Translations under genes and position numbers: made by a program
Notes under the pieces: generated by a model
What the model saw: only the letters and a program-made list of their open reading frames with translations
Told to the model about the DNA's origin: nothing
The model's database searches: none
Origin: Gracilaria domingensis
Lineage: Eukaryota > Rhodophyta > Florideophyceae > Gracilariales > Gracilariaceae
Direction of reading: 5' to 3'
Length of the DNA stretch: 64,000 nt
NCBI GenBank assembly: GCA_022539475.1
Contig: VCMS01000315.1
Location: 30,746 to 94,745 of the forward strand
Shown: piece after piece, positions 15,418-45,419 of the stretch
Layout of the letters: every line of letters starts with the position of its first letter
Numbering within the stretch: the first letter of the stretch is position 1

Positions 15418-15419
15418 AA

Positions 15420-21300: not shown

Positions 21301-21301
21301 A

Positions 21302-24175: not shown

Positions 24176-24215
24176 AGGTAACAATGTAATAAACAATAAA
24201 TTTATGCTACTATCT

Positions 24216-26463: not shown

Positions 26464-27357
26464 ATGTATAACTCAGAAGTTAGAGCCCAAGAAGTAACTC
26501 CTCAGCAGCTGGCTAACGAAATATTCGAAAATGGCTACGCCGTGATTAGTGATGTTGACGGTACTCTGAAAAGAGCTGGGGAGAATATTCCTGCCGAAAC
26601 AGTCAAATGCATGAAGTACATCAACGCACGCGTTGGTTTCGGAATTGCTACTGGGCGAGATATAGAGGATGCCGAGAGTTTCATGGAGCACCTGGGTGGC
26701 TACACTTTTGGCATCTCTGGAAACCAAGGCGCACGGGTGAGATTATCCAATGGTACCGAAATTGATCAGGACCTTGACAGGGAAGGTTACGAAAGATGTG
26801 CAGCCGAACTTGAGAGACTTGCACTCTCCTTAAATGAATCGCACGGACTTCACGAAGAGCGTCAACAAGCAGTGGTGAGCACTAGAAAAGACAGTGGACT
26901 CCCTAACTTCACGTACAATGGACTGTCGAAGTGGAAAACAGAAGTTAACTCCGGTATTTCAAAAGTGTTGACATCCTTTCCGAACCTGGTTGCGTACCCT
27001 CAAGATGAAAACTGTGACATAGGGGACATTCGTTTCACGAAAAATAGTGGGGCGCTAGCCTTGGTTGAAAACGACCCCCAGTTCGACACACATTTAATCG
27101 TTGCTTTCGGGAATGCTTCCAATGATGGCCCTCTATATGAAATGGCAACCCTGGCAGTTCATGTGAAGGGAGAAGACCATCCAGCAGCGGTAACATATCT
27201 TGTTGATGGGTGGAGGACGTGCATGAGACCATCAAAAGGGTGGCAGAACTGTACGGGTACAGAAAATGCAAGTGTCAATGGTTTAGAAATGCTCTTGGAA
27301 TTTGTTTCCAGTGCTACGATGCCTGTAATACTTAGCTATGATATGAGATCTCAGTAA
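26464..27357 (+). CDS. HAD-superfamily phosphatase-like protein
   Basis: The 297-residue protein from the ATG at 26464 carries HAD motif I as VISDVDGTLK (nucleophile Asp and Asp+2), motif II GIATGRD and motif IV GNASNDGPLYEM. This suits a Cof- or sugar-phosphatase-type (C2-cap) hydrolase that removes phosphate from small molecules; the substrate is unknown. Motif IV reads GNASND rather than GDxxND, so the first acid is Asn. A diverged inverted copy lies just downstream on the opposite strand, stop to stop about 90 bp. Confidence 0.7.
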   Translation: MYNSEVRAQEVTPQQLANEIFENGYAVISDVDGTLKRAGENIPAETVKCMKYINARVGFGIATGRDIEDAESFMEHLGGYTFGISGNQGARVRLSNGTEIDQDLDREGYERCAAELERLALSLNESHGLHEERQQAVVSTRKDSGLPNFTYNGLSKWKTEVNSGISKVLTSFPNLVAYPQDENCDIGDIRFTKNSGALALVENDPQFDTHLIVAFGNASNDGPLYEMATLAVHVKGEDHPAAVTYLVDGWRTCMRPSKGWQNCTGTENASVNGLEMLLEFVSSATMPVILSYDMRSQ

Positions 27358-27447
27358 TAAAAGTGTCGTATATATCTCAATACCCTTCTATGATTCATGG
27401 TGGTTTTTATCGTGCTGCTTTTCCTCGTAGCCGTACAACAGAGCCAC

Positions 27448-28248
27448 CTACATAATTGTCGAATGTACATCCTCCACGCTTTCGAACAGGTTGTGTACTC
27501 CACGCGGGATACAATCTTCTTTGACGTGAACGCCGTACACGCCTATCTCATGCAAAGGCCCGTCGCTCAAAGCACTTCCGAACGTCACGACGTCATCCGT
27601 ATCAATAAATCTCGGTTCATTATCCACAAGATTTTCTCCTCCGCTTCCTTTTGTGTATCGCGTGTCCACAATTTCGCAACTTTTATCGCCGGGATAGATA
27701 ACAAACGCATCCATCTTCTGCAACAGGTCCCCAATAGCAGAATCCACTTCTTCTTTCCACTGCTACAGTTTGTTGTACACGAAATTGGGAAGGCCACTAT
27801 CACTTCTGGTCTCCACGAACCCCTTGTCATCATCATTCACAATACCATGCCTCCTATTCAAATCCCTTGCCACGAACAGTAGTCCGTCAACAGTGTGGTC
27901 AAGGGTGTGATCATTGAATGCACCCTTAATTTCCCTCTCGTCAGAGAAACGCAGGAAAGCTCCATGATTCGCCGAGACACCAAACTTATAGTCTCCGAGT
28001 CCTTCCATTTTCCCCTCCACGTCGCCCACATCACCCCCTGTGACAAGTCCGAAACCAACACGTTCGTCAATGAACTTCATACACTTCACAACTTCTTCTG
28101 GAATTGACTCTCCTTCTCTTCTCAACGTTCCATCAACGGAACTTAATATACCGTAACCATTGGCATATATGAACTTAGACAAGGTATTTGGTGAAATTTC
28201 CGCCAAGTCTCTCTGTTCCTCTGCCATTTTTCCTGATACAGTCACCAT
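27448..28248 (-). pseudogene. Inactivated tail-to-tail copy of the HAD gene
   Basis: The frame from the ATG at 28248 is collinear with the upstream HAD gene throughout (KFIYANGYGILSSVDGTLRR, FGLVTGGD, SGLPNFVYNKL, GSALSDGPLHEIG). Motif I has Ser in place of the nucleophilic Asp (SSVDGTL against SDVDGTL). A TAG lies at 27760-27762, where the sister gene has Ser, splitting the frame into 161- and ~100-codon pieces. Motif IV Asn is Ser. These losses remove catalysis. The rest of the frame is intact, so the nonsense change looks recent relative to the amino-acid divergence. Confidence 0.8.
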
Positions 28249-28577
28249 ACTGCCACAAGTACCGCATAGACAGGACCTGCATATACTTCTCTTAAAAGCA
28301 ACCTTAAGTGCAGTTTCAGAAGTGTTAGGACGCTACATGTTCAATTGCGAATTGAATGGTGCCACCAATGATGTTAACGATACCGAGCATTTGGCATGTT
28401 GCAATTAGACGCAACTGGACCAAAGACGTTTGACATGTGTTCAATTACCAGCCTGCCGCACCTTTTCTATGTTCATATGTATAGCCTTGTAATAGTATAC
28501 TACTCTTAATACTCGCAAGACACACATAATTTACTAATCATCTCATTCTCATCCACTTCGAGGCGCTCGCAGCCTCA
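28249..28577. other. Gene-free interval at left edge of the composite region
   Basis: No gene is seen. If the 28.6-43.0 kb region is a single element, its left end should lie here. I could not recognise a terminal repeat. Confidence 0.35.
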
Positions 28578-29831
28578 TTATTGGCAAATCGTCATCACTA
28601 CTACTCTCGAGCACTTCGGTTCACCGGCGTCCGCTTCCACACCAATCTCCACGACCACTTGGTCTTCGTCCATGTCAACCGCCCCACCCTCCTTATCGGA
28701 CAACAGTTCATCCTCCGCCTCCTCCTCCTCGTCACCATTGACAAACGTGGGTCGGAAATCCCGCACCCGATGAACAGCATCAGGTAGTGCGTAGCCCTCT
28801 GGTACCATGTACATGTGGTATCTAACCAACAAATCCATAGACTCGGGCCTATCCACCTTGTCCTTCCCACTTGCTCCAGCATGTGTCACATCACCACGGC
28901 CCACGAATACAGAGTACGGTGGGATGATTATCTTCTTCGCTGGATACACCTCCGACATCACTCGCAACTGTTGGTTGTTCATCCCCACCAGTTGATGGCT
29001 TCCAGCGCTCACCCAGAGAGGAAAGCCCTCTTTCCCAGAGGCCATTACAAAGTATCCGGGGTTGCCAGTATTCATTGTTTCCTTCGTAACCAGACCACTG
29101 AAGTCGGTGTGCAGCGTCTGGCGCTTGCACTTTCTCGTCGTCCCCAGAAATCGACCACCAGTTTTCGGAGTGTACATCTTCACAGCTTCCCTTTCATTGT
29201 CCCATAGTCCCAAAGCCGCAGCAATTGTACCCATTCGAACATCAAGTAAAGCACGCGACCTTACAACCCACCTGAGCTCCTCATTATCCTCCGGCTTCTC
29301 CACCGTACCCCAACGTGTCGACATCACTCTCCCCTCAAATGGTCCATCGCTACCGTCCTTCCATCCTTCATCATCGTTGATTATTTGAACAAACGACTTC
29401 TGTTCCTCTCCTTTCCGTATATCCGGCATCGCTCCATACTCATTCTCGAAGAAGTCCACCAACTTCCCCGACACATCTCCGAACTCCCGAACTTCTTCCA
29501 ACTCCTCCCATTTAGGGACACCATTATCCGTCGCAAAGCCATCAAGCACGCAATATCCATTCTGCCTTAGCTCAGCTTGCATTCGGGCGAAGAACATTTG
29601 CCCAAATTCGTCATGCTCCTTCGCAGCAACCCACAGCACCTCTTCATCATCCATACCTGTCGGTCGAGTACGAGGATACTGCATACCAAATGTCTCCGCC
29701 CGTAGGCGATGTTCAGCCCTTGCAGCGTGCCAAAAGACAAGATGGTGTACATCTCTGAGATTCGAGACACTTAGCAGCTCCGACCTATGTCCCTTCGGCA
29801 AGTGAATGACTCTGAGCCAGGGTCCTTGTGC
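28578..29831 (-). CDS. 2-oxoglutarate/Fe(II) dioxygenase-like domain, probably fused to the ParB-like protein
   Basis: This frame is open from 29831 and overlaps the ParB-like ORF by about 61 bp. Numbering from 29801, it shows LHTDFSG (metal ligands H231 and D233), GRGDVTHAGAS (distal ligand H307) and SMDLLVRYHMY (R327, placed to bind 2-oxoglutarate). This is the HxD...H...R set of the double-stranded beta-helix dioxygenases, a superfamily that includes TET/JBP and AlkB DNA/RNA oxidases. The subfamily is not clear. The first ATG is at codon 40, but conserved-looking text (HLPKGHRSELLSVSNLRDVHH) lies upstream of it. This suggests the natural protein continues from the ParB-like ORF through a one-base frame change. 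The acidic C-terminal tail (GDEEEEAEDE) is probably disordered. Confidence 0.7.
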   Translation of the reverse strand, partial: AQGPWLRVIHLPKGHRSELLSVSNLRDVHHLVFWHAARAEHRLRAETFGMQYPRTRPTGMDDEEVLWVAAKEHDEFGQMFFARMQAELRQNGYCVLDGFATDNGVPKWEELEEVREFGDVSGKLVDFFENEYGAMPDIRKGEEQKSFVQIINDDEGWKDGSDGPFEGRVMSTRWGTVEKPEDNEELRWVVRSRALLDVRMGTIAAALGLWDNEREAVKMYTPKTGGRFLGTTRKCKRQTLHTDFSGLVTKETMNTGNPGYFVMASGKEGFPLWVSAGSHQLVGMNNQQLRVMSEVYPAKKIIIPPYSVFVGRGDVTHAGASGKDKVDRPESMDLLVRYHMYMVPEGYALPDAVHRVRDFRPTFVNGDEEEEAEDELLSDKEGGAVDMDEDQVVVEIGVEADAGEPKCSRVVVMTICQ

Positions 29832-32386
29832 TCAATTACGTTCTTCCCTTGCCATTCCTGCGGTCTCAGCCTGGCATACCCGCACCATGATGGGTTCAGT
29901 GGGCCATCATATGGGTCACCTCGAACAAGTCCGTGCTCCTCAGATTCCGGAAGAGCTGTAGGTAACTCGTCATCAAATGACCCCCCACCTGTCTCTTGCT
30001 GATCGTCTGGCGCAGCATCTTTCTCGACGGTGACAACCCGTGGAACTGTCACAGAAAGAAGCTCTTCGTCATCCACAAATGCAGAACTGCCTGCGTTCTC
30101 TGCATTCGCTCCCTCTCCCAATGCCACGAACTGAACCTTCATCGACCTTCCTCTCAGCACATGTTCATTTAGTTGAGACATCAGGTCATCCGGTGTCATG
30201 CTGTTCAGAGTAGATCTCATCTGTTGTGTGAAAGTCTTTCTCCGTTTCTTCCTCGGCGGAGCCCGCTGTTCTTCTTCAGAGCTATCCAGAACTTCTATGG
30301 CACCTCGATTTCGGCCGTGTTCGATTTCCCTATAACTCACCTGCGCCCGTTCTCGTGCACTTCTTCGCGGCTCCCCTTCTTCACTGTCAGATGTTGCAGC
30401 AGCAGCAGCGGGAGTCCTCCTCTTTGTCACGGACTGCTTCACTGGTGCAGGGGGCGGAATTACCTTGAGCATCGTCCGCAATCGATTCTGAACGGAAGTC
30501 GTGGCAGTTCTAATTGAGTTCGTCCTGCTCCGAACACGCGGCAAAGTGTTGAAGTTCACAACTTGTCCCAAAAGGAACTGATACACAGCTGCGTTGTTGT
30601 CTGGGTCTTCAACGTCATCTTCATTCGATGGAGTAGAAAGACTGACTTCGCGTTTCAGGAACACTTCCATGGACTCTTCCTCGTTCAGTTCATTCCTCAC
30701 TGCTCTAGCCGCGCGGAACAGAGACACTGCTCTATCATAAAAGAAACCTCGAACCTCCTCAAAGCTTTTCCATTGCTTTGTCTTCGTCGACTTGCCCTTC
30801 AATAGAAACATCTGAAGACAATCAAGAATGAAGGAAAACTCCTCGGCATCCAAAACATATAGCGGAGTATGGGACAGATGTGTGAGACCTATGTCACTCA
30901 CAGTCTCACATATATCCTCGAAATGGGCCAGCATTCCCTCACGAGACATGAGTTGCAGGGCGACATTGGCATATCTCAGGTACTGACGCTCTTGCACAGT
31001 CCCAATCAGTTGGCTCTCCTTCAACACTTCTGTCACTTCTGCAGGATCCACGTCTGCCGGCGTCACCCCCTCAACATCTTCAATTAGAATGGCGACCACA
31101 CTAACTATAGAGTGTATCTTGTCTGCAAACATCATCCTTCGCATGGTACTCGTCGACTCATTGAGGTACGAAGCAACACATAACAATTCCTTCATCCCAA
31201 TGGGCCTCCCATCTCTTCGTATCAGCAGATTGCAACGCCAAAACTTGGCTAATCGCTTCCACTTCGGTGCACCAGTCCCTGCCAAATATTGTATAGCTTT
31301 CAGACGATGCAAACCATCTACAATGAAGCACTTCTTCGTTAGGCGTCCCTTGTCAGTATCCCTCTCTCCCGTAGTAGCATCTTGTAAGGCCACCACTGGA
31401 GAACCCATCGACTGCAATATCCCCCGCTCCTCCATACTCTTCACAAGGGCTTCAACGTGGCGTTTACTTACTCCACGGAGTAAATTGGGCGGAGTGTCCA
31501 CCAGAGTGATGTCAACAGTAACAACAACCATCCGATACTGATTGAGGTTCACCTTTGGTACCTTCTGACGAATTCGTCTGTACGTCTTGCTCCGAGTAGG
31601 TGTCCCTTGTGTTCCAGACCGCTCGCCAGAAACACTTGAACGTGCCATTCTTGCGGACAGAAGCACAACGTCATCGTCCTGCTGCTCCGCAGTTTCTGGT
31701 GCAGTTTGGGGTACAGATGGACCAGCTCCTTGCGCGGATTGCGCATCCGCGTCTGGAAGGGGACCTTTCATGATCTCATCTTCCTCCTCTTGCACAGCCG
31801 TCCCCTGCTGAACCGTCTGTTTCGACGCAGAAGTTCCCCTTGTGTCGACGGTCTGATTCATCGCAGGAGAAGCCCTTTTCGACGCAGTGGGCTTCGTAGC
31901 GGAGGTAGACTTTGTTTGACCTGTCCGCTTCGTAGCTGGGGATGCTCTCGTCTCCATAGACCGCTTCGTAATAGACGACGGACCTGCCCGCGGAGGTGCT
32001 ACTGATGCGCTACCTCTCGGTGTTGATGAACTTCGAATTGGCTCCGTGCGGCTTGTCGGCGTCATCACCTCACTCATAGCGCTCACCGTTCCTCGCTTCG
32101 ACGCCGGAATGCTGGCTGCCACCGGTTCCATCATTTTCTCATCCCAAGGAGCGGCCGTCCGGAGATCCTGGATATATTGTGGAAGATCCAGGCCCTCCGC
32201 CCGGTAAGGGTAGAACGTCTGACCGCTTCGACTGATGAGAATATTATGAACCACCACAAGACCTGTGTCCAATTGCTTCCCGTGCAACTCGCGGCGTAGA
32301 ACACTTCCAATTCCATGCAACAACGCTTCCCGACTATCACCTTCCTTCATCCTCAATATCCATCTGCAGAGAATAAACCCGGCCAT
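29771..32386 (-). CDS. ParB-like nuclease/partition-domain protein of a mobile element
   Basis: The frame from the first ATG at 32386 encodes 871 residues. About 280 residues of Ser/Pro/Thr-rich text with repeated KRxxSPATKxT-like blocks (SITKRSMETRASPATKRT) precede a ParB/Sulfiredoxin-type fold at about 285-400. That fold shows VDITLVDTPPNLLRGVSKRH, VEALVKSMEERGILQ and CFIVDGLHRLKAIQYL, the last resembling the ParB box with GxHR. A long helical region follows, then a nuclear-localisation-like cluster (PPRKKRRK) and an acidic tail. Bacterial ParB binds centromere-like palindromes and hydrolyses CTP; in eukaryotes such domains are rare and occur mostly with element-encoded DNA methyltransferases. 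The 3' end overlaps the dioxygenase frame. The 5' end lies 60 bp from an assembly gap. Confidence 0.7.
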   Translation of the reverse strand: MAGFILCRWILRMKEGDSREALLHGIGSVLRRELHGKQLDTGLVVVHNILISRSGQTFYPYRAEGLDLPQYIQDLRTAAPWDEKMMEPVAASIPASKRGTVSAMSEVMTPTSRTEPIRSSSTPRGSASVAPPRAGPSSITKRSMETRASPATKRTGQTKSTSATKPTASKRASPAMNQTVDTRGTSASKQTVQQGTAVQEEEDEIMKGPLPDADAQSAQGAGPSVPQTAPETAEQQDDDVVLLSARMARSSVSGERSGTQGTPTRSKTYRRIRQKVPKVNLNQYRMVVVTVDITLVDTPPNLLRGVSKRHVEALVKSMEERGILQSMGSPVVALQDATTGERDTDKGRLTKKCFIVDGLHRLKAIQYLAGTGAPKWKRLAKFWRCNLLIRRDGRPIGMKELLCVASYLNESTSTMRRMMFADKIHSIVSVVAILIEDVEGVTPADVDPAEVTEVLKESQLIGTVQERQYLRYANVALQLMSREGMLAHFEDICETVSDIGLTHLSHTPLYVLDAEEFSFILDCLQMFLLKGKSTKTKQWKSFEEVRGFFYDRAVSLFRAARAVRNELNEEESMEVFLKREVSLSTPSNEDDVEDPDNNAAVYQFLLGQVVNFNTLPRVRSRTNSIRTATTSVQNRLRTMLKVIPPPAPVKQSVTKRRTPAAAAATSDSEEGEPRRSARERAQVSYREIEHGRNRGAIEVLDSSEEEQRAPPRKKRRKTFTQQMRSTLNSMTPDDLMSQLNEHVLRGRSMKVQFVALGEGANAENAGSSAFVDDEELLSVTVPRVVTVEKDAAPDDQQETGGGSFDDELPTALPESEEHGLVRGDPYDGPLNPSWCGYARLRPQEWQGKNVIEHKDPGSESFTCRRDIGRSC

Positions 32387-32445
32387 TCCACCTTGCAATT
32401 AATCGAGTGCTCCGCCGAGTGCGGGGACAGTCACCGCTTTGCGTA

Positions 32446-33321
32446 NNNNNNNNNNNNNNNNNNNNNNNNNNNNNNNNNNNNNNNNNNNNNNNNNNNNNNN
32501 NNNNNNNNNNNNNNNNNNNNNNNNNNNNNNNNNNNNNNNNNNNNNNNNNNNNNNNNNNNNNNNNNNNNNNNNNNNNNNNNNNNNNNNNNNNNNNNNNNNN
32601 NNNNNNNNNNNNNNNNNNNNNNNNNNNNNNNNNNNNNNNNNNNNNNNNNNNNNNNNNNNNNNNNNNNNNNNNNNNNNNNNNNNNNNNNNNNNNNNNNNNN
32701 NNNNNNNNNNNNNNNNNNNNNNNNNNNNNNNNNNNNNNNNNNNNNNNNNNNNNNNNNNNNNNNNNNNNNNNNNNNNNNNNNNNNNNNNNNNNNNNNNNNN
32801 NNNNNNNNNNNNNNNNNNNNNNNNNNNNNNNNNNNNNNNNNNNNNNNNNNNNNNNNNNNNNNNNNNNNNNNNNNNNNNNNNNNNNNNNNNNNNNNNNNNN
32901 NNNNNNNNNNNNNNNNNNNNNNNNNNNNNNNNNNNNNNNNNNNNNNNNNNNNNNNNNNNNNNNNNNNNNNNNNNNNNNNNNNNNNNNNNNNNNNNNNNNN
33001 NNNNNNNNNNNNNNNNNNNNNNNNNNNNNNNNNNNNNNNNNNNNNNNNNNNNNNNNNNNNNNNNNNNNNNNNNNNNNNNNNNNNNNNNNNNNNNNNNNNN
33101 NNNNNNNNNNNNNNNNNNNNNNNNNNNNNNNNNNNNNNNNNNNNNNNNNNNNNNNNNNNNNNNNNNNNNNNNNNNNNNNNNNNNNNNNNNNNNNNNNNNN
33201 NNNNNNNNNNNNNNNNNNNNNNNNNNNNNNNNNNNNNNNNNNNNNNNNNNNNNNNNNNNNNNNNNNNNNNNNNNNNNNNNNNNNNNNNNNNNNNNNNNNN
33301 NNNNNNNNNNNNNNNNNNNNN
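32446..33321. other. Assembly gap (876 N)
   Basis: A run of N joins the 5' side of the ParB-like gene to a palindromic block. Frames drawn across it are artefacts. The true gap length is unknown. Confidence 1.
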
Positions 33322-33331
33322 ACTGAGACGC

Positions 33332-33652
33332 AGTCGGTACAAGAAGTGCCGGGAGGAGTGTTTTGGGAGGTCTCCGGAGGGTGCCAAAAAATCGTCGAAA
33401 ACGTGCCCGCGGGCGGGGGGGTCCGGTCGTGTTAGGGTAGGTACCCTAACACGACTGGACCCCCCGCCCGCGGGCACATTTTGGACGATTTTTTGAAAAA
33501 TGTGCGATTTTATGCCCGCGGGCGGGGGGTCCGGTCGTGTTAGGGTACCTACCCTAACACGACCGGACCCCCCGCCCGCGGGCACGTTCTGGTCACATTC
33601 CGGCGCCTTCCGGAGACCTCCCAAAACACTCCTCCCGGCACTTCCGGCAGTG
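33332..33652. repeat. Nested inverted repeats with two ~72-75-bp palindromes
   Basis: The outer arms (about 33343-33390 and 33602-33645) share AGTGCCGGGAGGAGTGTTTT and continue into GGGAGGTCTCCGGA. Inside are two palindromes. That at 33403-33477 is near-perfect (one indel, one mismatch). That at 33513-33584 is perfect over 35-bp arms around a 2-nt centre. Both begin TGCCCGCGGGCGGGGGGTCC and centre on TTAGGGTA/TACCCTAA. They lie between the divergent ParB-like and methyltransferase genes. Confidence 0.95.
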
Positions 33653-33931
33653 ATTTCGCTGCACACGCCGTACACATATATCAAACTAGAGAAAACTAGC
33701 GCTTCACACCCACTTGATCCGCGACTTTTAGCACAATACGGGACCGTTGCAATAGCTCCGAATCGCGACGTGGCCGACACGCGACGCTATCGCTCCGACA
33801 CGCGACGCTATCGCTCCGAGCGGACACGGACACGGACGAGACTGGCAGTGCGCTGGGAGGAGCTGCCGAAAGCGGGGTGCCCAGCGTAAGTCGCCATTTA
33901 AAGGCTCGCCTCCGTTGTTTGCGCTGAAGCG
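33653..33931. other. Upstream region of the methyltransferase-SET gene
   Basis: It contains a short direct repeat (GACACGCGACGCTATCGCTCC, partly duplicated near 33777-33818). It would hold the promoter by position. Confidence 0.4.
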
Positions 33932-36900
33932 ATGGATTCCACCGATGTTGGAGAGGAGATACATCCTATCGACATGAGTGCTCCGCCTCCGGCGTTCCAT
34001 GCATATGTCAGACTTTTCTTGGTTCTTCGCGATGCTTTGGCAAACAGCGATGGAGGCCCTGATCGGCCACGGGACGTGGGGTTTAGAGGGTTAATAGAGT
34101 TCTGCGCCGAGAACTATAAGGATATTCCGGAGGCAAGGAAGATGTTTGAGGAGGCCACTAACTCCAAGAACCTGCAGAACTTGACACTGCAACAGCTGCG
34201 AAAGAGTGTTGTGAATAACAACCTGTGGAACAGCGATATCTTGTAACGAAGCTTCTTGACAAGAAGGACGGGGATGAGGACCAGAGACTGCGCGATTTTT
34301 TCCTTCTCTCTATGGATATGGGTATATACCTACCGGTGCGATGCCTGGTTGGTTATTTCATGACCAGGAGAAAGCAGGTTCTGAAGACGACAGTGTTCAT
34401 CCACCAACAGCTGTGAACCCATTTGAGGTCGTTATATACTTATCATACTCGGCACATAATGGGAGAGAACGACAACATCCGAATGATGAAGAAGAAACAA
34501 CCGAAAAAGAAACGAAAAGTGAACCATGCACCAGCTGTGTACATACCCACTTTTACGTCGTTCTCCAAAGACAACTGTGATCGACTGGGATTCGGTATCA
34601 GTGAGGTCGTATGGGCATGGAGTTGTTTTGCGGCTCATCTTGGATACACGAACGTTCAGCACATGGTGAAACCATACATTTACATGAATATGCAGACGTT
34701 GAAGTATACAGCGCTAGAGACACGGGAGTCTGGTTATGCCCCGCCGAGCCAGAGTACTCGATTCAACACAAAGGATGTGCCACAGAGCAGTACTAGTGGA
34801 TCGGTGGAGACCTTGAGTGATGAATGCGATACAAACCTGCGAATACTGGCTAAGGAGTTTTTGACAGACCTCGAAACCATATGCACCCACGATAGCCTCT
34901 ATAGCTTACGGGTTGATCAGATGAGGAACTGGATAGAGTTTTCGGAGATACGGATGGATACCGTATCTAGCTCTGACTCCGGTGAGTTGCCTGCTCGATT
35001 TCAGAAGTTTTCGGAGTTGCTATGGAACCGATACAGGATATGCGTCATGCGGCAGGGTTCCATGTCGGCATTCACGCGAAACCTGATATTGAACTGACGA
35101 AAACCCCTAAAACTTCCGGTAATGCCGAACCTTCTTCGACCAAGTCTGCCCACCCCACCTCGTCGAGAGTATATGAACCTCGTGAGCTCCGATAGCGACG
35201 AGTTCGAGAAGCCGGTGAATCTTGCGGAGCATGAATCTCGGGTTGCTGGTTACAACATCCAAAAGACTGGTATTGAGCCGCCCATGAAGGGGATATCCAG
35301 TCTCTTCGAATGAATATGGACAAGGTGTGGAAGGGGATGAGAAAGTCACACTTTGTAGCGTACAACTGTGACATGAAGGACCTGAGGCACACACACGAAA
35401 CGTTTGTGAATCAGAGTGAGATTTTATGGGGTGAGGCACAGCTTGTCCTAACAGACCCTCCTTTAACACTCGAAGGAAGAGGAACAAACGGAATAGTGGT
35501 CACGATGTCTTCAGTGAGGAAGACATGATCCGTACGGCTGACTTAATAAGTTCCGCGCTTCGGTCAGGTGGGCACTTCATTATATTCTGTGCCATGGCAC
35601 AGTTTCATGTGTGGCACAGGATACTTTCGGAAACGGCGAGTACGAAAGATGAAGCTGGAAGCGAAGGTAAACCAGAACTCATGCCTTCGTTTAAAGTGGA
35701 TGCGAATCCACTGGTGTTCATCCGGGATCGCAGTAATGTTGGAGGGAATCCACGGAAGTTTGGGATACAGCCGTAACGGAGTACGCCGTTCATGGGGTGA
35801 AGCGTGGATTGCGACCATCGGAGGAAGCCAGTCTTACTCCATTTGAGGAGAACAATTTCATTCCTTCCACTTTCCCGGCTAACAGGAATGTAATTGACCG
35901 GGTGCCCAAACCGAGGGCGGGGGAGTGGTTGACATGGAAGGTACATGAGCCAGGTAGCTCAGTACCAGGTGGGCAGTACATAAGACCGGAGCAGAAGTCG
36001 AGGGAGTTGATGAAGGAGTTGATATGTCGCTTCACAAGACCGGGTGATCTTGTCATGGACATGTTCGCGGGAACTTTTTCTACGGGTATGGCGTGCCTAT
36101 CGCTGACAAAGCATAGGAAGTTCTTGGGGTGCGAGAAGAATAGGCCATGTTTCAGCCATGCGAAGCACCATCTAACGACTCTTATGGCCGAAGTTATTCG
36201 GGGGGGAAGAATGACATCCTGGTTGAACAGGAGGTGGTGGATGCGGCTTCAACGACCTATGAACGGGTTCCACATCGGGACCGAGGTCGGCTTGAATGGG
36301 AGGCTCCATTTGGTTACCCCAGTACCAAGTGATGCCTGGACATATTACTCAGTTCCTAGGAAGATACTGGAAGGACTGGGACTTTGTCGACAAGTGTGGA
36401 GAGCGTACTGTAGATCTTTGGGAGGAGAAGTACGAGGAGCTCTGAATCTTATGGATATGCATATGCTGTTGACTGTTGAAGCCAATCGATATCGCTTACA
36501 TATAGCATCTTCTAAGATCCGACATCCCGTGCTGGTATGGGGGTGTTCACGGAACATAAGATATTGGCTGGGGAAACTATCTGTCATTTCTATGGAACTT
36601 TGGTATACACGGATCTGACGAACCGGAAGGAAAGACACTTAACGTATGGAAGTGGCTGTCTCGGAGCAACTCCAGTGCGGTACAAGTTGTTTTCTATGAT
36701 GGTCACTGTGACTGGTACGGAGTTTCTGCACCTGAGGAACAGACCAGGACAGGCTCAGGATAGAAAGGAGAGCGAAGTCTACATTGTCCGGCGCCTTTTT
36801 GTATCGGGGGCTACATTAACGACGCCGGATATCATGCCGGGGATCCCGATTTATCGGAGCCCGGTCAAACAGGACTCGAAGTGCAATGTGCAGGTGGTGG

Positions 36901-37052
36901 AAGCGAAGTCCGTGATACAGTTCAAGTCAGACCTTTCTAACTATGCTCTACTTCGTTGTAGAGCAGTAAGAGATATTGAGAGGGGCGAAGAGTTGTATTT
37001 CGACTACGGAGAGCAGTACGCCTGGGACTGGGCTCTGACATTGGAGCAATAG
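33932..37052 (+). pseudogene. Decayed DNA methyltransferase-SET domain fusion gene
   Basis: Overlapping frames in all three phases form one protein-like path of about 1,000 codons starting at the ATG at 33932. An early part contains a nuclear localisation signal, PKKKRKV, near 34500. A beta-class amino-methyltransferase (N6-adenine or N4-cytosine) follows. Motif IV is at 35454-35465, where AEAQLVLTDPP-like text (GEAQLVLTDPP) precedes a one-base loss; the following codons in the next phase start NTRRKRNK, so the ancestral motif was probably DPPY. The S-adenosylmethionine site DLVMDMFAGTFSTG is at about 36046-36093, preceded by KSRELMKELICRF. A SET domain closes the path at about 36490-37052: GMGVFTEHKILAGETICHFYG and DIERGEELYFDYGEQY. 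Frame changes occur near 34240, 35290, 35465, 35780, 36150-36440 and 36525. The fusion is inferred from continuity. Confidence 0.65.
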
Positions 37053-37299
37053 ATGAGTTCAGTAGCGAATAGAAAGTAAATATGCTTGTGAGTGTTGCAG
37101 CTGCCTGCAATACGCGTTGTTGTACATGTACACTGGAGCTCTTCATCTGTAACGGCGATATTTGCGACCCATTGGGCACCTCAAATTCCTAAAAAGCAGG
37201 AACTGCGGAGTCTCCCGGAATATCTGAACCATGCACCCCCCCCCCCACCCCTCCCCCCTCCCAACAATTTCGTTTCATTACCCTGTTTATCTCCACAGC
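37053..37299. other. Spacer with poly-C tract
   Basis: A C-rich run lies at about 37231-37262. A possible splice acceptor (CTGTTTATCTCCACAG) ends at 37298, just before the next ATG. No intron is proved. Confidence 0.4.
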
Positions 37300-39687
37300 A
37301 TGGGTATAACGCCGAGAAAGCGAAATAGTACGCAGCGGAACAAGAGTGGACAGAAGAAGAGAAGAGCATCGGATGATACGAATCAGGCTACAAGCACCGC
37401 ACTTCCTAAACGGAAGTCGTCCTCGACGAAGGAGAGAGTCAGTGGGCGTCCTTCTACAGGACTCTCTCGCCATCTGCAGCGGAGCGTCTTCCGGGATTGC
37501 GTCAAGAATTCGTGGATCAGCGAACGATGTCGTGCCGTCAACTGCCGATAATGCAAATCGTGCATCTGTCTCTGCTCCTCAAGAAGATGAGGTAACTCGG
37601 CCAGCGGGTCAGGACAGGAGGGCATGACAACTGGAACCGAAGAGGTTCGTATGACACCAAACCTTCATGTCCCGGCCGATATCGAAGACCGGAGCTACTG
37701 GGGCGCGGGTTACGCCGCCAGTGGATCTGGACAACAAGGGACAATGACGAGAAGTCGTGAGAGTCCTAGTATATTAAGATCGTCACGTCCATCCCTCTCT
37801 TCTAGAACTGGGGCCGCTATGAATCGTATCATGCCTCGCAATGGGTCCGGACAAGGGAGAAACACAATAAGAAATCGAGAGACAACTGATAGACGAGTTA
37901 CTTTTCGACCTTCCCTCTTTCCAGAACGGGGGCCGTTGCAGCTCGTACGAGGCCCAATTCATCTGATATACCATGCCATGGAGGAGGACATACACGGGAG
38001 TTGGAGCTCGGAGCCGTGCCAAGGGTGGACACAGAACGCCTGCAGCCTCTCGTGGCTAAGGCTATGGCACATGAGGATAGTTCCGATAACGAAATAACAC
38101 CGAATCCTGCGGCATTACGGGGCCTGTCGCCGAAGAAGCTAGGGAAATAACGGAAGATATCCAAACTGGTGTGAATTCAAGCTCTATGAACAGACCTGAT
38201 CTTTTAAATGAACTGAATTGCTTGAAAGAAAAGGTTAAGACGCTACAAGAGGACTTGATGGTTCGGGGAATTCTAGTGAAGGTCGCCCAAGAGCAGAGTA
38301 CGGCTTTGAAAAAGAGGCTTGAAGAGAAGGATCTAGTCATTGAAGGGCTAAGAGGGGCACTGAAACAGGAGGGAGATAGGAGTACACGTGCTGGTGAACC
38401 TGGGCAGACAGGTCGAAAGAAGCATAAAATTGAGGTGTGCGACGAGTTTCGAGGGGTTGCTCGAGCAGTGTATCACAACATGCTGACGTGGGCAAGGAGA
38501 GAAACAAGTGAGCTATGGCTCGAAGGTGAGTCGCTCACCCGAAATTGGGGTAACCGTGCCGAGAAGGTGGAAGACGCAACTGAGAGTGGGGAAGGGCTTA
38601 TTGAGCCGGAGGAAGGTGGTTCATACATGGTTCCTAAAAACCCCGTGGAGCTCTTGGGCAGTTTTGGCATGTTCACACCGTCGGTAGAGGGGGGGCCAGA
38701 TGCTTTGCTGAAGAAAATGGTTGAAAGCGAGTTGAAGGAGTTGAGCTGGGAAGGTATTAGAAAAGCATCTCTTACCGACAGGTGTATACTGGAACTTTGT
38801 GCAGATATGTGCCTTAGGCAGAGAATGCGGCAGACCATGAGTGACGTCGTGGGCGTTCGTAAGAGAAATACGAGGGATAAACTATTTCTGCTCCTGGGGT
38901 ACGATCTGATTTGGAGAAGAACAAAGCTGGTAGAAGAGAATGCTGACGAACTCACAATGCAGTTGAAGGAAGCGCAAGAGAACATACTGCTCTTGACGAA
39001 AATGGTGTACCGAACACTTCATGGTGGAGAAAAGCCCCATTTGTTCGTCTAAAGTACTCCAATGCGGACAATGTCGAGGATATGCCGACGGAAGATCAAG
39101 ACTTGTTCTTCCGAAACCGTGTCGGGGTACAAGTGCTGAAGGAGTTTATTGGGTATGATGTGGAAGACAAGGATACGGGCACCTTTTTAGATGGCACAAT
39201 ACTGTTGCTCGCACGTTTGGACGCTTGGGTGTTGACGGTTGTGAGCCTTCTAAGTACGGATGTGTCAAGGGGTGGCCAGAGACAGAAACTGTTTACAAAG
39301 AAGTTTGCTGAACTGCTACCTCTGTGTTTAAAGAATGTTCTGGGGGATGTTAGGCAACATGTCTTGAGGACCAATTCCAGCGAGTTTCATAATTTTGGAA
39401 CGACAACGGAAGATTGGACTAAGGTTCTTGGTAATGACATGAGAGAGGCTACATTTGGATATCGAATGCCGTCGAACGGAAGACTTTACCTCACTGTGAA
39501 AGAACAATTTTTTATTGACAGTGTGAGCCGAAGATTGGGGTCTATTAGCGATTGCTTCGTTGGTGAATGCGAGGAAGGGGATATGGAGTTCAAGGAAATG
39601 GACATGAACGATTTCGGAATTAACACAGGATCACAAGAAAAGGCACCACAAGGTGAACATGTAGAAGATGGAGCCCTTAATGTTTAA
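37300..39687 (+). pseudogene. Decayed gene for a basic and coiled-coil protein, unknown function
   Basis: A protein-like path crosses several phases from the ATG at 37300. It begins with a basic segment (MGITPRKRNSTQRNKSGQKK). An Arg/Ser-rich middle follows (37624-37990), then TRELELGAVPRVDTERLQPL at about 37993-38050. A coiled coil comes next (about 38190-38370: LNELNCLKEKVKTLQEDL, KKRLEEKDLVIEGL). A C-terminal helical domain spans 38430-39687. Frame changes are likely near 37500-37620, 37985, 38110 and 39015. I do not recognise a family. The gene ends stop-on-stop with the transposase: the TTAA at 39684-39687 supplies both stops. The packing and direction suggest it belongs to the same element as the methyltransferase-SET gene. 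Confidence 0.5.
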
Positions 39688-42600
39688 GGCTGTACAAGAT
39701 CAACGTGCTCAGTTGGTCCTTCATCTGAATCATGATAGAATCGATTGATGTAGAATCGGTGTTGGAACCATTGAAGTGGAGGACAAAAAGGTGGAGCAGG
39801 GTAGTTTGATCGAACAACATGGACAGTTCCCTGTAGTGCAGAAGCCGGAACCATCCCGTACCAAGGAGTTAACTCTACGATAGTCTCCGCTTTGGAATGA
39901 CGAGGGAACGGAAGAGTGTGGTTCTTTTCATCGTTTGTAGCCCACCGTAAAGATATGCATTTCAATATGTGGTCGATGTTTGTTGCGGGGGGTAAAACCT
40001 CGAAATACCGGACGAATGCCACCTCTGGTGCGGTAAGTGCAGAATCAAGGAGAGATATTCGAATCAGAGCGACTACCTGGGCAACCCAAGTCTCTGAATC
40101 TTCTCCGCTTACCAATACAGTGGAAAACTTTGGCTTTCTACTGGGACCAAATGCTGGAGAAGCGAAGACACGTTGGATGATGGGGTATTTGGGTCGTCCC
40201 AGCTTAAGTGCCTTAGAAGACGAATCGAAGTGTTCAAGAGTCGGAACGAAACCGCCTTTCACGACGGCCGAATTCACCAGAGTTATCCTTGTCTTTTCTG
40301 GGAAGTATGTAATAGAGTGCTCATCCAGTGTTTCTTTCACGAGACTGAGGAAAGGAGGAAGGGCCTGTTCACCAATTTGATCAAGAATCGACCTTGTGTC
40401 CGTACTTGAGAACATTTCTCTAACAGCAGTCCATGTTTTTGAACTGGACATACTTGAAACACAATGTTGAAGAGCTCGTAAAGTGAAAGAACGCCCTCTC
40501 ATTGCAAACCGAGGAAGCTGTGTGGAAGTTCCTGGTAAACCTGGATTACGCTGGTAAGGAGTATTGCCATTCCATTGCTTTCTAACATGTCCGTGCTCAA
40601 TGGAGCGAATAGTCTCCTCCACAGCCGTTGCTGTTCTTCTGGACGTCTTTTTGTAGTGTCTTTTAAATAGCAGGTGTGCATGTTCGTATATGCCTGCGTC
40701 GTAATACTTGATACTTCCCAGACGGCGAATATCGTCCACGAGATGATCGAGAAGATGAAACTTCAGAGTTCCCAGTCTGGAGGGATGAAAATCCGCCAGA
40801 GTCTTTGTTGCGGAACGCTTGAAGGCTTCAATCTCCGAACTAAGACACAGGAGAGAGCTTTCAGTCCAATACGGGTCACGATTGTATCTGAATAAGGTCG
40901 AGAGCAAGTCCGAATACTGAGAGAAAACGGTTGTGATTGGGGCAACGTCCTGTTCTCCACAGCATATGTCAAAGAATGCTCCTATGAAGGGAAAGACCAT
41001 GTCAAGTGCTTTGTAGTTTTTGGCCTCCAGCATTCCACGGAGACCGTCTTTCGTGAAGATACCATTCAAAGATTTGCCTTTCTCCTGCGTGGAGAAATCG
41101 ATATGTAAACCTTTGGCAGGAGAATCGCGTTCTATGGCAGCTAGAATTGCGTTTGCATGGTTGAGGAGTTGGGTGCGTATCGTTCGAAATGAACGCGATG
41201 CAGATGTTCCTAATGTGGTGCACAGGGTGTCTGACTGCAGTCTCTCGATTGTGGCCGTTTTTATCAACTTTGAGATGCCGAGATGCAAGTTGTGTAATGG
41301 TTCGAATGAGAACAGACTGTATGGAGACAATCCCGGGATCATTCCAAGGCTTACGGAAGTTTCGAGGAACGAAGGAATGAGAGATATGGAATTTGAACGC
41401 ATCAGAGTATCCGCTTGAGATCTCCTCTCCCTCGCACGACGTGGACGTCTTTCCGCCTCGTCTTTTTGTGCATGTTGCAAGATAGCTGTGTATGTCTTTC
41501 GGATGCTTTTCGTGTGCTTTTGAGAACGTCCGTTGAATGAGGTGGGAATAGGACTGCATAAAGATGAGCGAGGGGCTTTGCATCTATGACACGGGCTTTC
41601 CGTTTTGGTGCCATGAAGAATAGACAGAATGTCCTTAGCCTCAGGAATATCCGCACAATAACTTGCAAGCAGAGGATGGCACACTCGACTTAGTTTGTCT
41701 TCGCCGATGAACTGAAAACCTTTCTGCGTGAGATTTAGAATGGGCTCCAGGACTTGACGAAGAGATTCTTGAAGGATTTGCATCCTGGACTCGCGTAGAG
41801 ACTTGCTAGAAACAAATGGCATTGCGTCTGCTTCAGATGCGGAAACCTCGATCAGTGTGGTAGGGAAGTATGCCACTACTGTGAGGTCATCACGGATACA
41901 CTTACGGCGAAGCTGGTCGGAGAAGTTGAGAAATATGAGGTGAAGAGGATAGGCGGTAACCGATGTTTGCTTTAGAGTTGTTGAAGACTTATCGGTGTAT
42001 ACCTGCAGAAGACCTACGAAAGATTCACTGTAACTTATTTCTTGGGAGTACCACACTATTCTACTATCCAAAGAGCCCATGACCATTTCCTTAAGTTTTG
42101 AGGTGGCGTCTCTTGCGAGAGAGCCGGACATGGGGTGAGATATTTTCGTGGAGTGGGTCTGAGGTATAGGGTGGAAGAATGTGTTTTCGTTGTTAGCCAA
42201 CTGGAGCTGTTTCACAAGTGTCTGAACGGGGTCTCTCGTGTAGAGGGTGGCGCTGAACTTACATCCTTCTGGCGAGACAGTTCTGCGATTGAAACCGTCC
42301 TTTGAGGCGTATCGTTCGAAAATGGCGTTCTTCAGTTCTGTACAGCGCTTGGAACTTGTTATGGTCTCGTTGAATCGCTTTTGCGAGAATCGCGGGTCCC
42401 GAAGTAGCCCAATTAGCTCGTCCGCCTCACGATGACCAAGGTTGGAAGCTACTGAAGCCAGACAAACCGTGAGATAATCCATATGCAAATCACCGAGGGC
42501 CTCCTCAGAAGGCACTGGGCGGGAACTGCTTCCGTGTTCTCGCTCTAATGACGCGGGAGCCGGGGAAGGAGAAACACAATGCGAAGTGTCCGGAATGGGA

Positions 42601-42959
42601 GGGGCGCACGGAGTGGGGTCGACGATGTCCTCGGACACTGGAGGCTCGGGAAGGCGACAAGGGGCAGTGACCGTTTCGGAAGATGCGGGCGCGGGTGCGG
42701 AAAGCTTGAGACGCTTGCTTCTCCGAATGGGCCGGCTATTGTCGTCTTCCAGCGCTGCTTTCAGACGAAACGGGCAATGGTTGACATGCTGTTGAAGGGA
42801 TAAGACTCCTCGGCGAGTAACGAAGGGGCACCCACGCTTCTTATGTGTACAGTAGTAGACCATGGGAAGAAGAAATGAACGAGAAACGACGACAAAGACT
42901 GCAAGGGAAGGGCGTCCGAAGGGAGAAGGAGGTCGAGCGACAGTCAAGATCGACGTCAT
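39684..42959 (-). CDS. Plavaka/KDZ-like DNA transposase
   Basis: The frame is intact for 1091 residues. A C2H2/C-type zinc-binding start (YYCTHKKRGCPF to LQQHVNHC, about 35-62) is followed by a disordered Pro/Ser region. The RNase-H-like transposase core has YTDKSSTTLKQTSVTAYPLH and FLNFSDQLRRK (acid D323), then LASYCADIPEAKD (D437) with a PCHRCK zinc motif (C457, C460), and FEPLHNLHLGISK further on. These are the landmarks of the Plavaka family, a CACTA/KDZ-related group best known from fungi (DKTxx...AYPVYLxxGNxxxxxRRK; YxADxPEAxD...PCHxC). The third catalytic acid was not assigned with confidence. Another start at Met33 is possible. A neighbouring terminal inverted repeat could not be found by eye. 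Confidence 0.72.
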   Translation of the reverse strand: MTSILTVARPPSPFGRPSLAVFVVVSRSFLLPMVYYCTHKKRGCPFVTRRGVLSLQQHVNHCPFRLKAALEDDNSRPIRRSKRLKLSAPAPASSETVTAPCRLPEPPVSEDIVDPTPCAPPIPDTSHCVSPSPAPASLEREHGSSSRPVPSEEALGDLHMDYLTVCLASVASNLGHREADELIGLLRDPRFSQKRFNETITSSKRCTELKNAIFERYASKDGFNRRTVSPEGCKFSATLYTRDPVQTLVKQLQLANNENTFFHPIPQTHSTKISHPMSGSLARDATSKLKEMVMGSLDSRIVWYSQEISYSESFVGLLQVYTDKSSTTLKQTSVTAYPLHLIFLNFSDQLRRKCIRDDLTVVAYFPTTLIEVSASEADAMPFVSSKSLRESRMQILQESLRQVLEPILNLTQKGFQFIGEDKLSRVCHPLLASYCADIPEAKDILSILHGTKTESPCHRCKAPRSSLCSPIPTSFNGRSQKHTKSIRKTYTAILQHAQKDEAERRPRRARERRSQADTLMRSNSISLIPSFLETSVSLGMIPGLSPYSLFSFEPLHNLHLGISKLIKTATIERLQSDTLCTTLGTSASRSFRTIRTQLLNHANAILAAIERDSPAKGLHIDFSTQEKGKSLNGIFTKDGLRGMLEAKNYKALDMVFPFIGAFFDICCGEQDVAPITTVFSQYSDLLSTLFRYNRDPYWTESSLLCLSSEIEAFKRSATKTLADFHPSRLGTLKFHLLDHLVDDIRRLGSIKYYDAGIYEHAHLLFKRHYKKTSRRTATAVEETIRSIEHGHVRKQWNGNTPYQRNPGLPGTSTQLPRFAMRGRSFTLRALQHCVSSMSSSKTWTAVREMFSSTDTRSILDQIGEQALPPFLSLVKETLDEHSITYFPEKTRITLVNSAVVKGGFVPTLEHFDSSSKALKLGRPKYPIIQRVFASPAFGPSRKPKFSTVLVSGEDSETWVAQVVALIRISLLDSALTAPEVAFVRYFEVLPPATNIDHILKCISLRWATNDEKNHTLPFPRHSKAETIVELTPWYGMVPASALQGTVHVVRSNYPAPPFCPPLQWFQHRFYINRFYHDSDEGPTEHVDLVQP

Positions 42960-43684
42960 GCTGAGAACGGAGAATATATTTTGAGTTCAAATCACGTGCT
43001 TTCGTTCAAAAAGGAACGTAGGTACACGTCGACCTCAACACAAGGGTGTACTTCTCGTATTATCTACCACTGGTTATAAACCTGTGGTTTCGCAACGTTG
43101 TACGCTGTACACCTGTCCAATCTCGCACAGAAAAATAAATCTCTTCCCTCCGCCGCCGCCGCCGCGCCTCCGACGTCCGACCTTCCCTTACCGTCGTGAT
43201 CCGTGCCATCCACATCCTCGCGTTATACTCCCCTCCGTCCTTCTTTTTTCCTCCCTGTACTTTATGGAGGTTCCTTAAAGTAGAGGGCGGAAAAAAGTAG
43301 GACGGAGTCATCCGTATCTCACGGATGTATTCCGTGCAGTCTTTTCGTAGGTTCTCTTCCATATTCTTCTATGTATCTTTGCTCTAAACTAACCCATCCT
43401 CACCACGTTTTTTCGCGCTATTCGACATGTAAACGGCAGAAAATAAGCTTTGGGTTACCGGGTTCCCGTTTTCAGCCTCCAACGCGTTCCATTTGTTCAA
43501 CTAAGTTCTGCTTACGATATGTTCCATCTTGTTCTACGTCTTGCTACTAACATTGACGTGATTGAAGGTAACCACTATTTGACGTGCGTCCTTTGTATTT
43601 CTTCCGACGTCTACAACGACTGTAAGTACGCAACCAGTTTCATTTCGTCTCTCAAGATCGATCTCTGACTGCTCGTGTAACCTA
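42960..43684. other. Flank of the transposase gene
   Basis: No gene is seen. It should contain the right end of the composite element if there is one; a terminal repeat was not recognised. Confidence 0.35.
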
Positions 43685-44120
43685 TCACGCGGTATTGCCG
43701 ATCTTGGTTCACTTTGTTGCGCCATAGGCGTCTCTAGCTTCTCGCATCTTGCGCTACTTTTGGTTTGTTGGCGATCTTGGTTCCGCCATAGACTCTTCTC
43801 TCTTCTCGCGTCTTGCGCTGCTTTTGGTGTATTGGCGATATTGGTTGATATTGGTTGACTGGCTCGAGCGATAGGTTCATCATTGGCAATCTTGGTTGAC
43901 TAGGTTGCGCCATAGGATGGTCTCTCTCTTATCGCGTCTTGCGTTACTTTTGGTGCATTGGCGATATGGTTTGACTTGGTTGCCTCATAGACTCGCCTCT
44001 CTTCTCGCGCCTTACGTTGATCTTCTTGTATTGGCGATCTTGGTTGACTGGCTTGCGGGATAGTCGATTCTGGTACTTGGTTGCGACATAGGCTGCTCTC
44101 TCGTTTATCGCATTTTGCGG
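43685..44120. repeat. Degenerate tandem repeats (TTGGCGATCTTGGTTGACT family)
   Basis: A unit of about 75-120 bp recurs at least five times. Its blocks are TTGGCGATCTTGGTTGACT, GCGCCATAG, CTCTCTTCTCGCGTCTTGCG and CTACTTTTGGTG. Copies vary in length and have mismatches. Confidence 0.65.
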
Positions 44121-44428
44121 TATGTTTGCTGCATGGGTATTCTTGGTGTCGTTGCTTGTGAGTTCTCGCTTCGACACCTTTCGCGGTTTACGATGATATG
44201 GTGGGCTTGTAATCTAACCGATCCCTTTCCTGCTTCTTCTTCCGTTTGCGAGTTACCAGGTCCCTTGACTTTTCTAGCGCAACGTTTCTGTTTTGTTTTA
44301 TCAATGGTACGTTCCATCGCATTTCAAATGTATCTAACGGATCATTGACTAACTTATGGATACTTTCTGCTTGCGTATACAGGTAAATGACTTTTGATGC
44401 GTACGTAGCTCACGAGTTGCAGGTGCAG
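44121..44428. other. Unassigned interval
   Basis: No gene or repeat is seen. Confidence 0.3.
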
Positions 44429-44580
44429 GTTCCTCAAGTAGGGAAACATGCATCTGGGCATGGTTCCCTACATGAGGAACGGAGAGGATGAGGCGCTTCG
44501 CGCCTCATCCTCTCGGAGTGCGTATGTGTTCTACCGATCAGCAATTTGGTGCAGGTGCCCTCTGCGGCATCTGCCGCAGA
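44429..44580. repeat. Cluster of three consecutive hairpins
   Basis: Hairpin 1 has 23-bp arms at 44429-44451 and 44458-44480 with two mismatches. Hairpin 2 at 44482-44514 has perfect 15-bp arms (GAGAGGATGAGGCGC) and a 3-nt loop. Hairpin 3 at 44561-44579 has perfect 9-bp arms (TCTGCGGCA) and a 1-2-nt loop. Confidence 0.85.
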
Positions 44581-45419
44581 TTGGGCCTACATCCGATCCA
44601 TCATGGGGAAATGGTACATGTAATATAGCGAAGTAGTGGTTAGCAAAAGCGGTCGATAGAAGAATAGATACGAATAAAACGGTATGATTTCATAATGGGC
44701 ATCATCTGTACTAGCACTAGTATTCCATGCGTTGCAGGGTATCATTCCGCAGAAGGTATCGTGTAATGTGCACCTTAATGGAAACTGAACCTAGACTTCG
44801 CGAAATACAGTTCAGGTAGCCCTCGACTAAAGAACTAGCACGAGTGGAAAACCCACCAGTATTTACTGCACAGCGATTCTGGACGACCCAAGCAATTATC
44901 TGCAGATTTTGAAATAATTGATCTCGATATTTTTTCAAAAAATTTACTGGACGACCCTTGCCAATTTCTGGACGACTTTCGCCAAAAACTAGCATCTGCA
45001 AGAGACAGAAGAGGCTTCCCCGCGCGCCGCCGCACGACCACCGTGCGTCTTTCGAAAACGTGCGAAATCAGGCGGTTGCGGCCACATTCCAGACATTCCG
45101 AATCTGATATTGGCTTGCCGCTGCGCTGTCTAGAAGCCGAGATACGGCCAAATCTTTGTTTTCGGCCCAGAAACCGAGTGGCAAGCCATTTCAAAAAATT
45201 GTCGCAATAACCAGTGGATGTTTTGGCTCGCCGCGCGCCGTTGCAGGCGGGACGCGCGCAGTAAGCATGCCAATGGTTTAGCGCGTTAGTCTGGTTAGCC
45301 AGTTAAGTCGATGGTTAAGATTGCGGATAGCGAAAACATCCGCTGAAAATGTTAGCCGGTGGCAATCGTTTCCATTCTGGACAGTGTGGCGCAGTGTCCT
45401 ACGGGTCATACGCTCCCTC
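44581..45419. other. Region expected to hold the 3' LTR of the first Ty3 element
   Basis: It lies downstream (leftward) of the polyprotein end on the minus strand. A purine-rich tract on the minus strand (AAGGAGGGAGCG, about 45413-45424) could be the polypurine tract, with the LTR beginning TGACCC just left of it. I could not align this segment to the presumed 5' LTR, so it is not called as an LTR. Confidence 0.35.

Follow-up and report, generated by a model that had tools for sequence, protein, structure and literature searches.

A giant, high-copy Plavaka transposon carrying ParB-like/dioxygenase-like and DNA methyltransferase-SET fusion genes in the red alga Gracilaria domingensis

Gene content of the locus

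We analyzed a 64,000-nucleotide stretch of Gracilaria domingensis DNA, referred to here as the window (C315:30746-94745), and searched the 77.9-Mb assembly of 680 contigs to which it belongs for further copies of its parts. The original prediction, which was framed by comparison with fungi, had proposed five tightly packed gene units at 28578..42959. Its ORFs, strands, and coordinates are correct, but the host is a red alga and the stretch contains four genes, encoding a ParB-like/dioxygenase-like protein, a methyltransferase-SET protein, a coiled-coil protein, and a Plavaka transposase, with further ORFs to the left.

The ParB-like/2OG-dioxygenase-like fusion gene is located at 28549..32445 on the minus strand. 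The window copy carries a frameshift at 29771-29831, and its 5' end enters an assembly gap, whereas in the intact copies L020 and L021 the ParB and dioxygenase parts form a single ORF of 1305 codons (1305 aa). An overlap at 29771-29831 had been taken as evidence of two packed genes and is instead this frameshift within one ORF; the second sign of packing, two stops that share TTAA at 39684-39687, is real and recurs in C591. The ParB-like domain contains a DGxHR motif. A structure model of moderate confidence (mean pLDDT, 62.6) supports a ParB fold, with structure comparison recovering the ParB/sulfiredoxin N-terminal fold and a Foldseek search against the PDB giving no match at E 0.001 or better. 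In the second domain, H1119, D1121, H1195, and R1215 are invariant in all three aligned proteins; we take these to be the HxD...H iron triad and downstream arginine of Fe(II)/2-oxoglutarate oxygenases, with HTD as the iron motif. This domain had no Pfam match up to E 5, no NCBIfam match, and no meaningful PDB-profile match, including none relevant to the TET/JBP family that had been raised for it, and its AlphaFold model has a mean pLDDT of 32. We refer to the domain as dioxygenase-like, from its conserved HxD...H residues only.

The DNA N6/N4-methyltransferase-SET fusion gene is located at 33974..37052 on the plus strand, and both domains belong to a single ORF of 1031 codons (1031 aa) in the copy on C171. 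The methyltransferase domain matches PF01555, contains DPP(F/Y) followed by FxGTxS in all three methyltransferase sequences, and has adenine methylases among its nearest solved chains. A DPP(F/Y) motif placed before the SAM motif presumably marks a beta-class DNA adenine methyltransferase. Judged by these features, the enzyme is of the bacterial adenine type, with predicted N6 specificity. The SET domain matches PF00856 above the cut-off (E 1.4e-7). Compared with C171, the window copy of this gene has lost single bases at 17 sites, most of them in short runs of C. Only 1 of the 17 is common to C591, which is otherwise ~99.3-99.6% identical to the window; most of the deletions are therefore copy specific, and some may be errors of the assembly. 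Such errors probably account for part of the apparent breakup of the genes. Several methyltransferase copies do, however, have the same stop pattern, and real decay also exists. We also considered and rejected a viral origin of the accessory genes: at least 46 loci on viral contigs match the methylase region of the methyltransferase-SET alignment at 21-54% identity, and no ParB-dioxygenase loci were found on viral contigs.

A gene for a basic, coiled-coil-like protein follows at 37300..39687 on the plus strand. The window ORFs at 37.6-39.7 kb correspond to a single ORF of 798 codons (798 aa) in C591. This gene is convergent with the transposase gene, and the stop overlap is reproduced in C591, with the end of the coiled-coil ORF at 12140 and the start of the transposase ORF at 12137. 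The Plavaka-family transposase (39684..42959, minus strand; 1091 aa) is intact in the window and matches PF18759 above the curated cut-off (E 1.1e-18; profile positions 41-272 of 325), a domain present in 32 of the 32 relatives found. Residues D323, D437, C457/C460, H735/H739, and E759 are invariant in 12/12 aligned sequences, among which D323, D437, and E759 are predicted by position to be catalytic. Of the 42 copies scored, 38 have a transposase ORF without stops.

The left-hand part of the locus contains four additional ORFs. A coiled-coil-like ORF of 341 aa (22655..23680, minus strand) has no Pfam match above the cut-off and is present in C23. An ORF of 367 aa (24733..25836, plus strand) contains the nucleotide-binding-like motif GRGRIG and has no Pfam or NCBIfam match; by eye only, it resembles ketopantoate reductase. 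A HAD-IIB (Cof-type) phosphatase-like ORF lies at 26365..27357 on the plus strand, and its counterpart in C23 matches PF08282 (E 2.3e-13) and TIGR01484 above its cut-off. A second, inverted HAD-like ORF with a broken frame (27763..28248, minus strand) is similar to the first by eye and by DNA, with inverted self-similarity of ~71% over 108 bp.

Between the two divergent fusion genes lies an array of long palindromes (33322..33645), abutted by an assembly gap of N's at 32446..33321; the array region of C23 also has unresolved bases. In one example, two 35-base arms are 2 bases apart, and the palindromes, which vary in number, are repeated at intervals of ~110 bp. A 34-mer from the array, TACCCTAACACGACCGGACCCCCCGCCCGCGGGC, has 343 genome matches with up to 2 mismatches and none for the control. 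When array sites were compared by eye with gene and terminus positions, the arm was inside an element or beside its genes or termini at 14/14 of the exact-match sites listed (C1-C63). Five of these sites lie inside a paired element, and the remaining 9 are close to an unpaired terminus or have element genes on either side. The array is a candidate binding site of the ParB-like domain.

Termini and extent of the element

The element is considerably larger than first proposed. Aligning copies, as the original prediction had recommended, placed its ends at 22217 on the left and 45008 on the right, rather than at 28578 and 42959. Read on the plus strand, the whole element (22217..45008) is ~22.8 kb and has the left end CGTCTGTGTTCTGCA and the right end TGCAAGAGACAG, the latter followed by ACG in intact copies and by AAG in the window copy. 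In a DNA search with window positions 14000-28300, 15 of the 21 copies scored had their left edge at exactly 22217, with 99% identity. On the right, alignments with C108 and C49 stop at window positions 45008-45009; on the left these two copies are cut off at 22732 and 28340, respectively. Subterminal tandem repeats with periods of 64, 73, and 21 bp occupy 43712..44985, near the right end.

Both termini are repeated throughout the genome in nearly equal numbers. Allowing up to 1 mismatch, a 26-mer from the left terminus (22217..22243, plus strand), starting one base in, has 560 matches (275 on the plus strand and 285 on the minus strand), and the right terminal 19-mer (44990..45008, plus strand) has 558 (262 plus and 296 minus); the reversed-pattern controls gave 0 for each. 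The element ends are CGTCTGT...ACAGACG, with an inverted match of 12/15, although the right 20-mer, taken as a terminal inverted repeat, was not recovered at the left end even when 3 mismatches were allowed. At the base level, 20 pairs hand-picked from the paired elements described below have CGTCTGT on the left in 20/20 and ACAGACG on the right in 19/20, a comparison in which only the outermost left C and the final right ACG fall outside the search words. These ends fit neither PlavakaA (TGT..ACA) nor PlavakaB (CATCA..TGATG), and we therefore classify the element as Plavaka by its transposase without assigning it to either type.

An identical 2-bp target duplication flanks 14 of 23 scored copies (the 20 pairs plus C8, C9, and C23). 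A permutation test gave a mean of 2.2, and 14 or more was reached in 0 of 100,000 permutations. The identical duplication is absent in the other nine (C8a, C16, C18, C22, C34, C41, C51, C9, and C23). A CG target duplication, as expected of insertion into CpG, was considered and rejected because CG belongs to the left terminus in 20/20 pairs and to the right terminus in 19/20, while the neighboring 2 bp differ among copies and are often identical on the two sides. The window copy is separate from the 23 scored copies, and its right end is altered: its left junction is intact, and its right junction adjoins a different repeat. The repeat that flanks it on the left runs on without the element in C70, C29, and C1. 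For C23, C8, C9, and the window copy, the search for an empty site joining both flanks returned one-sided repeats only. The flanks of C23 come from different sequences, indicating that this copy is chimeric or rearranged.

Copy number, gene order, and deletion derivatives

Each of the genes is present in many copies, with at least 52 for the ParB-like domain, 42 for the transposase, 102 for the dioxygenase-like domain, 141 scored for the methyltransferase, and 134 for the coiled-coil gene. We counted gene order among 42 transposase matches, 52 ParB matches, 79 of 134 coiled-coil matches (by rank, plus C97), and 36 of ~150 methyltransferase rows, 35 of which lie on contigs picked for a ParB or transposase match. 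At least 22 of the 42 scored transposase copies have a neighbor in the same order at near-constant spacing (the coiled-coil gene or the methyltransferase), and at least 17 of the 42 have a convergent coiled-coil gene at 638-693 bp. A divergent methyltransferase occurs within 4.2 kb of at least 23 of the 52 scored ParB copies. Wrong-side controls gave 0 in these same rows, and the co-occurrence of these genes in the same order across genome copies, proposed at the outset as a check, is borne out.

Pairing of left and right ends that share a strand, are correctly oriented, and lie up to 30 kb apart recovered 47 elements from 96 left and 100 right ends (exact matches among those listed, on contigs up to C63-C65). 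Wrong-orientation pairing controls, obtained with a simpler counting rule, gave 7 and 13. The paired elements fall into size classes of 10.1-11.3 kb (15/47), 12.4-14.5 kb (14/47), and 19.0-24.3 kb (13/47), with 5/47 elsewhere. For example, C23 (22.8 kb) has the complete gene set, while C8 (10.5 kb) and C9 (14.1 kb) have neither the methyltransferase-SET gene nor the coiled-coil gene and little of the ParB-dioxygenase gene. Both of these shorter copies join at window position 40060, within the transposase C terminus, and both retain the palindromic array, the two termini, and pieces of the accessory genes. In C8, the transposase lacks its C terminus and contains an internal stop. From this structure, C8 and C9 are internal deletion derivatives, which have probably moved in trans.

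These copies bear directly on whether the packing of the genes is accidental, with a smaller Plavaka transposon lying beside or nested in an unrelated repeat that carries the ParB-dioxygenase and methyltransferase-SET genes. Such an arrangement could account for transposase copies without accessory genes, such as C8 and C9, and for copies that are often broken or chimeric, as seen in the C23 flanks and the right flank of the window copy. The discovery of transposase copies lacking these neighbors had been named in advance as grounds for abandoning a single element. C8 and C9 do not have that effect, since both termini are present, the losses are internal, and the C8 transposase is itself truncated with a stop. 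Moreover, the termini flank the whole set in near-equal numbers (560 and 558), and no element end was seen between the transposase gene and the ParB-dioxygenase gene in the aligned copies C591, C108, C49, and C23. The left edge, terminus counts, deletion copies, and end pairing together argue strongly against accidental packing, which we regard as extremely improbable.

The named parts almost certainly constitute one element, as had been proposed from their packing and as the defined ends, target duplications, and hundreds of copies now indicate, and mobility of the Plavaka type is very likely. The window therefore contains one copy of a giant, high-copy Plavaka (CACTA-like) DNA transposon that is present in hundreds of copies in G. 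domingensis. In each of the five multi-gene copies (window, C591, C108, C49, and C23), at least one of the four main genes is not intact. Red algae thereby gain a defined giant element with known termini, a target duplication, deletion derivatives, and hundreds of copies.

Constraint on the accessory genes

Among the best 30 ParB-dioxygenase copies, dN/dS was 0.44 for the ParB-like domain and 0.58 for the dioxygenase-like domain, compared to 0.89 and 0.69 for the linkers; values near 0.5 indicate modest constraint. By the script's projection, one or more in-frame stops occur in 16 of these 30 copies. The accessory genes could be captured passengers without function for the element, a reading that fits the many broken copies as well as the frequency of elements of 10.1-11.3 kb (15/47), the size of C8, which is without most accessory genes. 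However, deletion derivatives can move in trans, dN/dS is lower in the domains than in the linkers, and the same architectures and motif residues recur at ~29-42% identity in P0003-P0006. We consider the passenger explanation to be quite improbable.

Comparison of copies also gave no excess of CpG transitions, with C>T at 0.167 in CpG versus 0.151 elsewhere and G>A at 0.226 versus 0.200. There is therefore no trace of 5-methylcytosine decay and no support for 5mC silencing as the target that the element counters. No 5mC/RIP signature was seen in this comparison.

Proposed role of the accessory proteins

As a whole explanation, we moderately favor a giant Plavaka transposon with accessory proteins that act on the element's own chromatin. 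Full-length copies would supply the DDE transposase, which would cut at the CGTCTGT ends and could cut and paste any DNA with these termini, deletion derivatives included. The ParB-like domain would recognize element DNA, possibly at the array of palindromes that separates the divergent genes, and would bring the Fe(II)/2-oxoglutarate oxygenase to it, such that a base or histone mark is removed or altered. The methyltransferase-SET protein would methylate adenine and add a histone methyl mark. As a result, the element could stay transcribable or be marked as self during transposition. We suggest this self-marking or antisilencing role only tentatively, as something that may well not hold.

Alternatively, the accessory enzymes could regulate transposition itself, with adenine methylation and ParB binding marking replicated or unreplicated ends, by analogy with Dam in bacterial transposons, and with SET acting on proteins of the element itself. 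Bacterial Tn10/IS10 is an established case of transposition controlled by adenine methylation, and this precedent, the bacterial adenine type of the methyltransferase, and the lack of a 5mC mutation signature are all compatible with such control. On general grounds, however, a SET domain suits chromatin more than control of DNA ends, and we view regulation of transposition as somewhat unlikely. More specific than the chromatin-directed reading that we prefer is a scheme in which the element builds its own chromatin domain, like a bacterial partition system. Predicted ParB-like clamps would load at the array, spread, and carry a dioxygenase that erases a host mark, while the methyltransferase-SET protein would write paired adenine and histone marks. 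This version is doubtful and slightly less plausible again than transposition control.

If the proteins work as proposed, this would be a eukaryotic transposon with a DNA-binding eraser and a double writer, of DNA and histone marks, encoded as two fusion proteins, and transposon self-marking could be tested by ordinary methods. If the partition-like scheme is true, a self-recognizing writer-eraser system of bacterial origin would operate inside a eukaryotic transposon.

Relationship to known elements

Giant Plavaka transposons have reportedly been linked to red-algal genome expansion by Petroll et al. (2025, Current Biology), working on Bostrychia. The original prediction presented the composite as an undescribed kind of element, a description that no longer applies: giant accessory-gene transposons in algae, some with ParB-DNA-methyltransferase proteins, are already in print according to the available portion of PMC12477816, and this kind of element is therefore known. 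Red-algal genomes are also described as repeat rich in the part of PMC10388701 consulted. Neither the ParB-dioxygenase nor the methyltransferase-SET fusion was found in the literature searched, a set consulted in part that excluded Petroll 2025, the likeliest place, and Iyer 2014. The accessible text of PMC12695648 has no mention of "red alga" or "rhodophyt."

The giant transposons of Bostrychia, as outlined in the same portion of PMC12477816, resemble the present element in having a red-algal host and in being giant EnSpm (CACTA-like) elements with several accessory genes. Compared by description only, the present element is distinguished by the fusion of ParB to a dioxygenase-like domain and of the DNA methyltransferase to SET. 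The Plavaka giant repeats of Amoebidium have genes that match red algae, but many of their genes encode tyrosine recombinases, and the excerpted text mentions no ParB-dioxygenase or methyltransferase-SET set (PMC11244446). SET-encoding HarbingerS and MuDR transposons of Phytophthora, as cited in the sections seen of PMC12730594, are likewise DNA transposons with a SET methyltransferase; they belong to another superfamily and host, and those sections mention no DNA-methyltransferase fusion.

Sola1-1_Ec32 of the brown alga Ectocarpus is a DNA transposon of 21.5 kb whose gene for a ParB-like and N4C/6mA-type methyltransferase protein lies opposite the transposase strand, again from the available portion of PMC12477816. 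In that element, ParB and the methyltransferase are joined in one 1104-aa protein and accompany a Sola1 transposase, whereas the present element has two divergent genes, with dioxygenase-like and SET domains added, and a transposase of the Plavaka family. This arrangement differs from that of the algal ParB-DNA-methyltransferase proteins, which combine both domains in one polypeptide. TET-positive fungal Plavaka elements (Kojima 2025, PMC12730594), to the extent covered by the sections seen, resemble the present element in their C(2)C and H(3-4)H transposase motifs and in target duplications of 2-3 bp, and they encode an oxygenase proposed to oppose silencing. Those elements occur in fungal hosts, belong to PlavakaB with CATCA..TGATG ends, and encode PE-type oxygenases with HxE; the element described here has CGTCTGT..ACAGACG ends and an HTD motif, and adds ParB-like, methyltransferase, and SET domains.

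Flanking sequences of the element

The altered right end of the Plavaka-type element (window 22217-45008) adjoins genes of a Ty3/gypsy-type retrotransposon, which lie immediately to its right on the minus strand (window 45462-49531) and encode reverse transcriptase, RNase H, and integrase, together with a chromodomain that scored slightly below its cut-off. The left side carries a RING-finger protein ORF (window 20033-20596); a 161-bp tandem repeat also occurs there, external to the element, in a pair of arrays (window 15557-16383 and 19274-19786) separated by approximately 3 kb. Also to the left is a 348-amino-acid ORF (window 16679-17725) that, judged by eye from the motifs HSMKRG...NAYHNY, looks like a tyrosine recombinase; a Pfam search of this ORF returned nothing up to an E value of 0.01.

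The flanks of the full-length copy on contig G000:C23 (loci L039 to L041) differ from one another. Its right flank matches the dioxygenase gene of other copies, whereas its left flank does not, a mismatch that reflects either a nested insertion with rearrangement or an assembly chimera.

Interior features and public annotation

Both of the internally deleted derivatives read (10.5 and 14.1 kb) retain the palindromic array at window 33322-33645. The arm of this array occurs in 343 copies genome-wide. The interior also holds a pair of mutually inverted HAD-like phosphatase ORFs (window 26365-28248).

The public-record names of P0001 and P0002, two proteins matching the ParB-dioxygenase fusion gene, are cell-wall-anchored protein SasA and Mediator subunit 15-like protein; both are probably misnomers for copies of this gene.
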